From an uncultured Paraprevotella sp. (lineage in GTDB: Bacteria; Bacteroidota; Bacteroidia; Bacteroidales; Bacteroidaceae), in assembly GCA_900546665.1 (NCBI GenBank), contig URDY01000007.1, positions 1 through 64,000 on the forward strand: DNA of 64,000 bases, in the 5' to 3' direction. The position numbers and the translations under genes were made by a program. This document shows, in pieces, positions 25,505 to 41,551 of the stretch (its first letter is position 1; each line of letters opens with the position of its first letter). The notes beneath the pieces were generated by a model that worked only from the letters and a program-made list of their open reading frames with translations, was not told where the DNA came from and ran no database searches.

Positions 25505-25915
25505 TGAATTATATAAAAATATACTTTTGTATAAAAATGAAAGTATAATTAATCATTTTTACTTTAGGCTTTTAAAGATTGTTTTTTTTTGTATTACATT
25601 TGCGAGGTAAATAAAAATACTTATGAAAAATATACTTGTTGCCGGAGGAGCTGGATTTATAGGGTCGCATTTGTGTGAGTGCTTGTTGCATCAAGGGCAT
25701 CAGATAATCTGCTTGGATAATTTCCGAACAGGAAGTTTGAAGAATGTTTCTCCTCTAATGAATAACCCATGCTTTAAACTGGTAGAACATGATATCACCA
25801 TGCCTTATAAAATACAAGGTATAGATGAAATCTATAATCTGGCTTGTCCGGCCTCACCTGTTCATTATCAGGTTTCTCCTGTCGAAACTGTCAAAACGTC
25901 TTTTATTGGTACATT
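25505..25915 (+). repeat. Intact copy of the ~400-bp tandem duplication
   Basis: This is the partner of the decayed copy at 24975-25375. It carries the promoter and 5' third of the intact UDP-xylose synthase gene. The bases between the two copies (25376-25504) show no gene. Confidence 0.8.
25595..25602 (+). promoter_or_regulatory. -7 box of the peptide/glycan operon
   Basis: TACATTTG matches TAnnTTTG, 21 nt before ATG 25623. It is the only convincing promoter before the long run of close or overlapping genes to 30588. Confidence 0.55.
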
Positions 25916-26588
25916 GAACCTATTGGAACTGGCTCATGACAATCAATGTAAGCTTTTACAGGCTTCTACCAGTGAAGTTTATGGTGATCCTGAAATCCAT
26001 CCTCAGCCGGAGCATTATTGGGGACATGTCAATCCTAATGGTATCCGTTCTTGTTATGATGAGGGTAAACGTTGTGCAGAAAGCCTTTGTATGGACTTTT
26101 ATCGGGAATATGGCGTGGAGGTAAAGATTATTCGTATTTTCAATACCTATGGACCGCGTATGGCTTGCGATGACGGACGGGTCGTATCCAATTTTATTCT
26201 GCAGGCACTTCGGGGCAAAGATCTGACTGTTTATGGTAATGGAATGCAGACCAGGAGCTTTCAGTATATAGATGACCTGATTCGTGGGATAGAATCTATG
26301 ATGTCCAGCCGGAATACATTTACAGGTCCGGTCAATATTGGTAATCCTGAGGAATATACAGTGTTGGGATTGGCAAGGCTGATTATAGAGCTGACAGGAA
26401 GCCGTTCTGTTATCAGGTTTAGTGATATTCCGTCAGATGATCCTCGAAGACGTAATCCGGATATCACGCTTGCCAGACAGGCATTACATTGGCAGCCCCG
26501 CGTTTCTCTGTATGAAGGGTTGCAAAAAACAATAGCCTACTACCGTCGGCTTTTATCAGTCTGTTATGAACCTGTAGTTTGTCAGTGA
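25623..26588 (+). CDS. uxs: UDP-glucuronate decarboxylase (UDP-xylose synthase)
   Basis: The protein has 321 residues and an extended SDR fold. GGAGFIGSHLCECLL is the NAD site, LACPASP and STSEVYGDP (Ser/Thr-Glu active-site stretch) follow, and CYDEGKR holds the YxxxK catalytic pair (about 145-149). FNTYGPRM, VYGNGMQTRSFQYIDD and RNPDI are typical of the family. It converts UDP-glucuronate to UDP-xylose. It is the first intact gene of the operon, and its stop overlaps the next start (TGATG). UDP-xylose is the likely donor for one of the glycosyltransferases downstream. Confidence 0.92.
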   Translation: MKNILVAGGAGFIGSHLCECLLHQGHQIICLDNFRTGSLKNVSPLMNNPCFKLVEHDITMPYKIQGIDEIYNLACPASPVHYQVSPVETVKTSFIGTLNLLELAHDNQCKLLQASTSEVYGDPEIHPQPEHYWGHVNPNGIRSCYDEGKRCAESLCMDFYREYGVEVKIIRIFNTYGPRMACDDGRVVSNFILQALRGKDLTVYGNGMQTRSFQYIDDLIRGIESMMSSRNTFTGPVNIGNPEEYTVLGLARLIIELTGSRSVIRFSDIPSDDPRRRNPDITLARQALHWQPRVSLYEGLQKTIAYYRRLLSVCYEPVVCQ

Positions 26589-40430: not shown

Positions 40431-40435
40431 ATTTC

Positions 40436-41551
40436 ATGAAAAAAGAATATGATATTATTATAGTAGGCAGTGGCTTATATGGAAGTGTAGTAGCTTATAT
40501 GGCACATCAGGCCGGGTATCGTTGTTTAGTTGTAGAAAAACGACCGTTTACTGGTGGAAATATCCACGATGAAGTAAATGAAGGAATAAATGTGCATTTA
40601 TATGGTCCTCATATTTTTCATACTGGCAATCAGAAAGTATGGGATTTTGCTAACCGGTTTACTCTATTCAATCATTTTCGTTATTGTCCGTTGGCCCGAT
40701 ATAAGGATAAATTATATAATCTGCCATTTAACATGCATACTTTCTATCAATTATATGGTATTCAGGATCCAGAAAAAGTCATGTTACGATTGCGGCAGGA
40801 ACAGGAAATTTGCTCTCATCCGCGGAATCTGGAAGAAAAAGCTATTTCGATGGTAGGGCGTGTCATGTATGAAACATTGATTAAAGGCTATACTGAGAAA
40901 CAGTGGGGACGAAAAGCAACGGAACTTCCTCCTTTTATTATTGCACGTTTACCATTGCGTTTTACTTTTGACAACAATTATTTCAATGATCCTTATCAGG
41001 GTATTCCTGTAAAAGGATATGCTTACTGGATCGATAAAATGCTGGAAGGAATCGAAGTACGTTTGAATACTGATTTTCTTGCGGAAAAAAAACGTTGGAT
41101 AGAGAAAGCAAGGCATATTTTATATACAGGACCAATAGATGCTTTTTTTGACTATCGTTTAGGAGAACTGGAATATAGAAGTTTAAGATTTGAACATATT
41201 CTGTTTGAAAAACCTAATGTGCAGGGAATAGCTGTAATTAATGAAACAGACAGTCGGATACCTTACACACGTAGTATAGAACATAAACATTTTGTATTTG
41301 GAACACAGCCTGTTTCCATAGTTACCCGGGAATTTCCGCAAAAATGGGATAGAGATCGGGAACCTTTTTATCCGGTTAATGATGAAAACAACAATAGACT
41401 TTACCTGCGTTATAAAGATTTGGCACAAAAAGAATATCCTCATGTTACATTTGGAGGACGTTTAGGTATGTATCGTTATTTTAATATGGACGAAGCTGTT
41501 AAAAGTGCATTGGAACAGTGGGATATGATAACAAAGATAATAGCAATGTAA
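40436..41551 (+). CDS. glf: UDP-galactopyranose mutase
   Basis: The protein has 371 residues, normal for Glf. The FAD-binding motif DIIIVGSGLYGSVVAYMA opens the protein, followed by VVEKRPFTGGNIHDE, VHLYGPHIFHT, YTEKQWGRKATELP, PVKGYAYWIDKML, and TFGGRLGMYRYFNMDE near the C-terminus. It interconverts UDP-galactopyranose and UDP-galactofuranose. It is the last gene of the operon. Its presence suggests that galactofuranose is one of the sugars attached by the cluster's transferases. Confidence 0.95.
   Translation: MKKEYDIIIVGSGLYGSVVAYMAHQAGYRCLVVEKRPFTGGNIHDEVNEGINVHLYGPHIFHTGNQKVWDFANRFTLFNHFRYCPLARYKDKLYNLPFNMHTFYQLYGIQDPEKVMLRLRQEQEICSHPRNLEEKAISMVGRVMYETLIKGYTEKQWGRKATELPPFIIARLPLRFTFDNNYFNDPYQGIPVKGYAYWIDKMLEGIEVRLNTDFLAEKKRWIEKARHILYTGPIDAFFDYRLGELEYRSLRFEHILFEKPNVQGIAVINETDSRIPYTRSIEHKHFVFGTQPVSIVTREFPQKWDRDREPFYPVNDENNNRLYLRYKDLAQKEYPHVTFGGRLGMYRYFNMDEAVKSALEQWDMITKIIAM

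Follow-up and report, generated by a model that had tools for sequence, protein, structure and literature searches.

A predicted thioether-cross-linked and O-glycosylated peptide pathway with a GT27-like transferase domain in Paraprevotella

Gene organization of the operon

Positions 1 to 64,000 of contig URDY01000007.1 (assembly GCA_900546665.1; hereafter the window) from an uncultured Paraprevotella sp. contain an operon at 25623-41551 that combines peptide-modifying, glycosyltransferase, and export genes. The pyrophosphatase encoded in the window shares 92 to 95% identity with its three best matches among 18 genomes of the P. xylaniphila genus, 11 of which gave a match, in agreement with a Paraprevotella species. 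All of its genes lie on the plus strand, neighbors either overlap or are at most 188 bases apart, and every gene other than that for a radical S-adenosylmethionine (SAM) maturase is an open frame. A first-pass annotation had described this tightly packed run as a glycosylated, radical SAM-modified peptide system, and its coordinates were confirmed. A short precursor with a leader and cleavage site, tailoring enzymes, and an exporter lie alongside one another, as in pathways for ribosomally synthesized and posttranslationally modified peptides (RiPPs).

The operon begins with a gene for a UDP-glucuronate decarboxylase/UDP-xylose synthase (UXS; 25623-26588), whose product matched UXS1 structures in phmmer searches at E 1.3e-112 (next family, 5.1e-40), and ends with the UDP-galactopyranose mutase gene glf (40436-41551; TIGR00031, 366.6 bits against a cut-off of 303.75; PF03275); both sugar-nucleotide enzymes had been recognized previously. 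uxs is followed by a gene for an 804-amino-acid (aa) fusion protein (26588-29002), which comprises a DxD-type GT2 domain (26588-27310), a domain resembling polypeptide GalNAc-transferases (ppGalNAcTs; 27329-28252, residues 248-555), and a C-terminal LanC-like helical domain (28280-28999). The best solved relatives of the GT2 domain include chondroitin synthase, and none of its 25 matches at E ≤ 1e-3 was a ppGalNAcT.

The middle domain, in contrast, matched the ppGalNAcT catalytic fold well above other GT-A families. It shares with the animal and apicomplexan enzymes of CAZy family GT27 the GT-A fold across nearly the whole domain, the DxH and later His metal ligands (D335-A-H337 and H470), and the GH(I/V) region. 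In an alignment of 19 such domains, the ligand columns D90, H92, and H225 are invariant, with DAH in 18 sequences and DGH in one, and 18 of 19 carry GH(I/L)(Y/F); the domain of locus L019 was excluded from this alignment, yet that locus was counted as positive in the tail comparison and maturase tree described below. Unlike GT27 enzymes, with which it shares 19 to 24% identity, the domain has no Golgi anchor, is fused to GT2 and LanC-like domains, and lies in a bacterial RiPP-type operon. Since YGCEE replaces the WGGEN motif in the window, we label the domain GT27-like and do not assign it to GT27.

The fused LanC-like domain matches PF05147 below its cut-off (E 6.7e-4); its profile matches LicM2, NisC, and LanCL1 at E 7.7e-6 to 1.1e-4, and its predicted model is all helical; the structure searches were taken up by matches to transferases. 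A cyclase would have zinc ligands (Cys, Cys-His), but no Cys or His column was conserved in half of the 18 aligned domains of this kind, and a function as a LanC cyclase was rejected. With the zinc site of a cyclase missing, its role is probably to hold the precursor for the transferase. Of the three LanC-like toroids proposed in the first-pass annotation, this one is fairly supported, a small protein (39672-40430) shows a weak resemblance (hhalign 60%, E 8.9e-5), and the domain behind GT14 (34545-35216) gave nothing significant against the LanC-like profile (0.5%).

The radical SAM/SPASM maturase gene (28989-30283), although present as predicted, is frameshifted into two pieces (28989-29471 and 29426-30283), with the junction close to a stretch of nine A residues at 29364-29372. 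An intact 431-aa relative in public data (P0001), which represents 29 sequences, is 99% identical over the second piece. The break may reflect assembly error, phase switching, or decay; because the gene is frameshifted, the cross-linking step may be off in the window strain. P0001 reaches no NCBIfam maturase cut-off; the best match was TIGR04463 (154.9 bits against 525), and the ranthipeptide model NF047865 gave 127.9 bits against 340. To our knowledge, no glycosylation is associated with maturases of the PapB and TIGR04463 types. Such systems (PapB, PMC9413430) likewise pair a radical SAM/SPASM enzyme with a Cys-rich precursor, the difference being that P0001 falls below every maturase cut-off.

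The precursor gene (30301-30588) encodes a 30-aa leader ending in a double glycine (GG; 30301-30390) and a 65-aa core with 11 Cys residues; the first-pass annotation had likewise described a Cys-rich double-glycine precursor with a 65-residue core. The tail after the last Cys lies at 30511-30585. Next comes the gene for an outer-membrane barrel (30777-33668; PF14905 above cut-off), then that for a GT14 protein (33675-35216; PF02485 above cut-off), and then that for a C39 peptidase ABC exporter (35194-37404; PF03412, PF00664, and PF00005 above cut-off), barrel and exporter being the families named before. Adjoining the exporter is a 142-aa protein (37401-37829) with one apparent transmembrane helix by eye, for which family searches gave no match; the single helix that had been described is thus seen, while the adaptor role attached to it has no family match. 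Homologues of this protein occur in loci L088, L028, L012/L143, and L151. The following gene (37823-39685) encodes a GT2 domain (PF00535) and a putative second transferase domain, with no clear relative among solved structures for its C-terminal half, so that four of the four or five transferase domains claimed for three genes are supported.

The GT14 domain (33675-34544) has peptide O-xylosyltransferase 1 (XylT1) as its best solved relative, at E 4.3e-11 versus 1.2e-4 for core-2 GnT, and a profile of four sequences was likewise closer to XylT1 (1.3e-22 versus 8.6e-11). Unlike XylT1, the operon's protein is bacterial and fused to an unassigned domain, and its acceptor and donor are putative. 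The UXS enzyme would supply it with UDP-xylose as donor.

Distribution of the GT27-like domain

A maturase-based scan of the best 80 of at least 311 relatives gave 80 loci. When the GT27-like domain was searched for alone, it was found in 21 of 399 genomes of the family, at 27 places. The contigs found in this way are partly those found with the maturase; the two sets overlap, and only the retrieval is independent. A related radical SAM gene was present in 24 of the 27 fetched stretches (as half a gene only in L152), and the same 24 hold a GG precursor, detected by the leader model in 21, as the contigs of L012 and L014, matched by length, in two (L143 and L144), and by eye in L162. The condition named by the first-pass annotation as a refutation, transferase loci that never hold a precursor or radical SAM gene, was thus not what we found. 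The other three places all lie near contig ends: in L160, a different radical SAM/SPASM protein adjoins the domain (SPASM model above cut-off); L161 encodes a TIGR04150-type pseudo-radical-SAM protein (235.5 bits against a cut-off of 250) along with a C39-type exporter; and L163 has a C39-type exporter whose NCBIfam matches are full length but below cut-off.

Outside the family, the domain was rare. Searches of the order, the phylum, and a class (centered on G134) found it in 4 of 393, 1 of 395, and 1 of 345 genomes, respectively, counts that include the center genomes; the phylum- and class-wide searches gave nothing beyond these, and the order search added three places. L096 encodes a LanB-type dehydratase (PF04738, 457.6 bits), a TIGR03891 protein, and a C39 exporter; L097 encodes a TIGR04148 maturase, a TIGR04150 protein, GT14 proteins, and a C39 exporter; and L098, in which the domain ends 0.7 kb from the contig end, showed no RiPP-type genes in 19.9 kb. 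In sum, a radical SAM protein, a pseudo-radical-SAM protein, or a C39-type exporter accompanied the domain at all 27 family places and, with the order search included, at 29 of 30, the exception being L098. Because radical SAM loci, the LanB locus L096, and the TIGR04148/TIGR04150 locus L097 all carry it, the GT27-like domain accompanies at least three RiPP chemistries. The L096 region (10029-18471) is itself a Bacteroidales lanthipeptide-type locus in which a LanB dehydratase stands beside a GT27-like/LanC-like protein.

In the maturase tree, 21 of the 22 rows from loci with the domain, including P0001, fell into one 23-row clade (support 95/84), whose other two rows (L002 and L017) both come from contig edges. 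In L013, which lies outside this clade, a free GT27-like protein occurs together with a Thr/Glu/Pro tail. Maturases of the window's clade are broken in several loci (window, L152, L154, and L158), while the transferase stays open. Frameshifts at homopolymers, which could point to phase switching, were looked for in L154 and L158: runs of 5 to 7 bases lie near the L158 breaks and none in L154. An apparent GT27-radical SAM fusion in L152 was rejected as linkage evidence, as it contains only maturase profile positions 194-429 and looks like a deletion product.

The first-pass annotation knew of no characterized Bacteroidales product combining radical SAM chemistry, xylose/galactofuranose supply, and transferase-toroid fusions, but genome mining had already listed radical SAM, LanC, and S-glycosyltransferase areas in Bacteroidales, together with GG precursors and C39 exporters (PMC10352776). 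Clusters BGC3 to BGC5 of that study share with our operon the radical SAM proteins, LanC-like proteins lacking the zinc triad, GG precursors, and, in some, glycosyltransferases or other carbohydrate-active enzymes. The accessible portion of the study suggests that the LanC-like proteins resemble endoglucanases more, reports no LanB in the Bacteroidales genomes screened (1,136 mined), and names neither a GT27-like domain nor mucin-like tails. Also absent from that portion are precursor genes adjoining barrel genes and a LanB locus that carries the GT27-like/LanC-like module. Searches of one open-access library brought up no account of a GT27-like transferase within a RiPP locus.

Precursor peptides and their tails

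A sequence search with the precursor returned only a single near-identical copy (P0063), and relatives were found through gene neighborhood. In the family alignment, the leader ends in LxGGF or a similar motif and is followed by Asn/Cys repeats and, usually, a tail. The longest tail after the last Cys had a median of 24 residues in loci with the GT27-like domain versus 5.5 in relatives without it (Mann-Whitney p 4e-8, a value that takes related loci as independent). All 21 positive loci contributed a precursor, as did 48 of the 57 negative loci, which come mostly from other orders; the remaining 9 gave no precursor by pattern, and L002 and L017 were placed in neither group.

Many of the 25 listed precursors carry Thr/Pro or poly-Thr runs in their tails, and in L162 a Thr/Pro tail goes with a free GT27-like protein. 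Four have short tails of 1 to 3 or 13 residues (L138, L151, L153, and one of L149), and the 16-residue tail of L154 lacks Thr. Most of 22 cores from the window and its relatives have a hydrophobic C terminus, frequently with Phe as the last residue, and the paired barrel could read this as a sorting signal.

Barrel pairing and comparison with P. xylaniphila

In each of the 21 loci that carry the fused enzyme, namely the window, P. xylaniphila, and 19 others, a barrel gene comes directly after a precursor gene, although the L003 barrel is split between two frames. Two or more of each occur in L038, L014, and P. xylaniphila, but the pairing is not strictly one to one: L009, L004, and L008 have two precursors and one barrel in the stretch, and L028 has the reverse. 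The barrel may be a dedicated outlet, a receptor, or an immunity partner.

P. xylaniphila holds a gene-for-gene colinear copy of the operon (contig C61). Between the two, identity is lowest for the maturase (65%), precursor (54%), barrels (64 and 50%), and small protein (58%); intermediate for UXS, the 142-aa protein, the downstream transferase, and glf (76 to 81%) and for the first GT2 and LanC-like domains (83 to 86%); and highest for the GT27-like domain (93%), the GT14 domain (93%), and the exporter (96%). From this gradient, the precursor, maturase, and barrel seem to change as a set, whereas the parts for glycosylation and export are retained.

Of the fetched stretches, many of which end at contig ends, just three others hold a true UXS homologue (P. 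xylaniphila, L019, and the edge of L002), and glf is shared with P. xylaniphila alone, which is also the only searched locus with a homologue of the small protein at 39672-40430. Because UXS and glf homologues are so scarce, xylose and galactofuranose look like a Paraprevotella elaboration; the supply of these sugars, for which both genes are present, is the weakest part of the first-pass proposal.

Proposed pathway and alternative explanations

We consider it reasonably probable that the operon is a RiPP pathway for a Cys-rich peptide that is thioether cross-linked, O-glycosylated on its tail, and exported by the C39 transporter. The gene order, GG-leader precursor, GT27-like and GT14 domains, exporter, and conserved co-location are read directly from the DNA; the predicted product would be a cross-linked, sugar-coated, exported peptide, a bacterial counterpart of mucin. 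In this pathway, the radical SAM/SPASM maturase would install thioethers in the Cys-rich GG precursor, and the GT27-like domain, of the type that initiates mucin glycosylation, would O-glycosylate Thr and Ser residues in the tail and leave the Cys block free of sugars. Further sugars would come from the GT2, GT14, and downstream transferases, with UDP-xylose and UDP-galactofuranose made by the operon. The C39 transporter would then cut and export the peptide, and the barrel paired with the precursor may deliver it to the surface. The first-pass proposal of a glycosylated RiPP remains the best reading, although it overstated the number of toroids and the window maturase is frameshifted. The most surprising element, which that annotation missed, is the mucin-initiating-type transferase domain that accompanies Thr/Pro-rich tails. 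The chances are about even for a broader proposal, that gut Bacteroidales make stapled mini-mucins, in which a Cys/Asn block carries thioethers, a Thr/Pro tail is glycosylated by a bacterial branch of mucin-initiating GalNAc-transferases, and, in Paraprevotella, a proteoglycan-type xylosyltransferase provides a second kind of start.

Several observations weigh against this reading. The window's maturase gene carries a frameshift, those of L154 and L158 are broken, and half of the L152 gene is deleted. The alteration of WGGEN and AGG of ppGalNAcT2 (to YGCEE and GAG) makes the donor sugar unreadable from sequence, the ppGalNAcT lectin domain is absent, and the L019 fusion carries a degenerate domain without DxH. 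L151 and L153 keep the GT27-like domain with tails of 3 residues, the Thr run of L138 precedes the last Cys, and the window tail (25 residues with 3 Thr, 6 Ser, and 1 Pro) is mildly mucin-like at most. Some T/P-rich tail also occurs in L023 and L078, which lack the domain, and the negative loci of the tail comparison differ mostly in order as well. For the xylose part, L019 has UXS without GT14, and GT14 occurs without UXS within the fetched stretch in L097, L152, and L156.

Glycocins such as sublancin and enterocin F4-9 are ribosomal GG-leader Cys peptides with a dedicated GT2-type transferase and a C39 exporter, and we know of none with a radical SAM enzyme. The operon shares the Cys-containing GG-leader peptide and the C39 exporter with them but has a multidomain GT27-like transferase and precursors with Thr/Ser/Pro tails. 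The transferases might, as in glycocins, modify Cys or other residues of the Asn/Cys block, with the Thr/Ser tail serving only as a spacer or for targeting to the outer membrane. SunS and other glycocin S-transferases are GT2 enzymes, the first GT2 domain distantly matches SunS (E 6.1e-7; SunS-family model TIGR04195, 31.5 bits against a cut-off of 350), and the hydrophobic, often Phe-terminated ends of many precursors could serve sorting. We nevertheless regard this as unlikely: the GT27-like domain groups with Ser/Thr O-transferases by fold and DxH, tails are longer where it is present, and the predicted thioethers themselves need Cys. A still smaller chance is left for transferases that make a lipid-linked or capsular glycan and lie in RiPP loci by chance or coregulation. 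UXS, UDP-galactopyranose mutase, and GT2 enzymes are common in polysaccharide loci, and the second half of 37823-39685 has no assignment; no operon product, however, gave an above-cut-off match to polysaccharide polymerase or flippase families, and a capsule or exopolysaccharide locus was rejected as the principal explanation given the constancy with which the transferase accompanies RiPP-type genes (27 of 27 and 29 of 30 places).

That the locus is decaying in the window strain and yields no mature product is also improbable. The frameshifted maturase and a decayed uxs duplicate upstream (below) would fit it, but the remaining operon genes are open, the near-identical intact maturase P0001 is in public data, and indels in homopolymers can arise from assembly errors or phase switching. 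Least credible, and scarcely to be expected, is a radical SAM peptide glycosylated after export solely by the host's general Bacteroidota O-glycosylation system. That system is described as widespread in the phylum, with a motif of Asp, Ser or Thr, and then a mostly hydrophobic residue (PMC12871550), but the motif, tested as D[ST][AILVMT], occurred in only 1 of 22 cores, and the operon's own transferases would be left without a task.

Direct transfer to Ser/Thr starting mucin-type O-glycosylation is a known feature of animals and protists. If the proposed stapled, tail-glycosylated peptide is correct, bacterial mucin-type O-glycosylation would be a dedicated RiPP modification, with a GT27-like/LanC-like module common to at least three RiPP chemistries. 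A bacterial family with the same fold and metal site, linked by genomic context to small peptides of exported type with mucin-like tails, would provide a new tool for peptide glycosylation and allow ideas on how GT27 arose to be tested, and its products would be a new class of gut-microbe peptides, possibly resembling host mucins. It would also suggest a role for orphan Bacteroidales LanC-like domains as partners of a peptide transferase.

Upstream flank and other features of the window

Upstream of the operon lie a putative regulator of the locus (22668-23438, plus strand; LuxR-type helix-turn-helix by eye, no Pfam match), a GNAT-like gene (by eye), and a ThiF-type gene, together spanning 22668-24807. 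A 42% homologue of the regulator lies just upstream of uxs in P. xylaniphila (L001:5707), and a 26% homologue lies in L152. Homologues of all three genes are grouped in a Tenacibaculum radical SAM locus (L026, approximately 4.5-6.2 kb) and in L099, and the set is perhaps a signal-and-response module. Between it and the operon, a plus-strand segment (24979-25361) is a decayed partial duplicate of the uxs start and its upstream region, 77% identical to 25507-25899 across 395 alignment columns.

The landmarks on either side of the operon (19.0-21.7 kb and 44.2 kb) keep their synteny in P. xylaniphila (contig C42) and G394, at 84 to 86% aa identity. A clean empty site was rejected, as other genes, unrelated ones in P. 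xylaniphila, fill the interval in both and the G409 stretch shows the 44.2-kb landmark only. The DNA at 22600-25000 gave only two short matches in 18 genomes of the genus. Elsewhere in the window, a match to the FopS small RNA family above its gathering score lies at 54891-54957, and a 1295-aa protein encoded at 59792-63679 joins GT2, DUF4922, and SpoIID/LytB domains.
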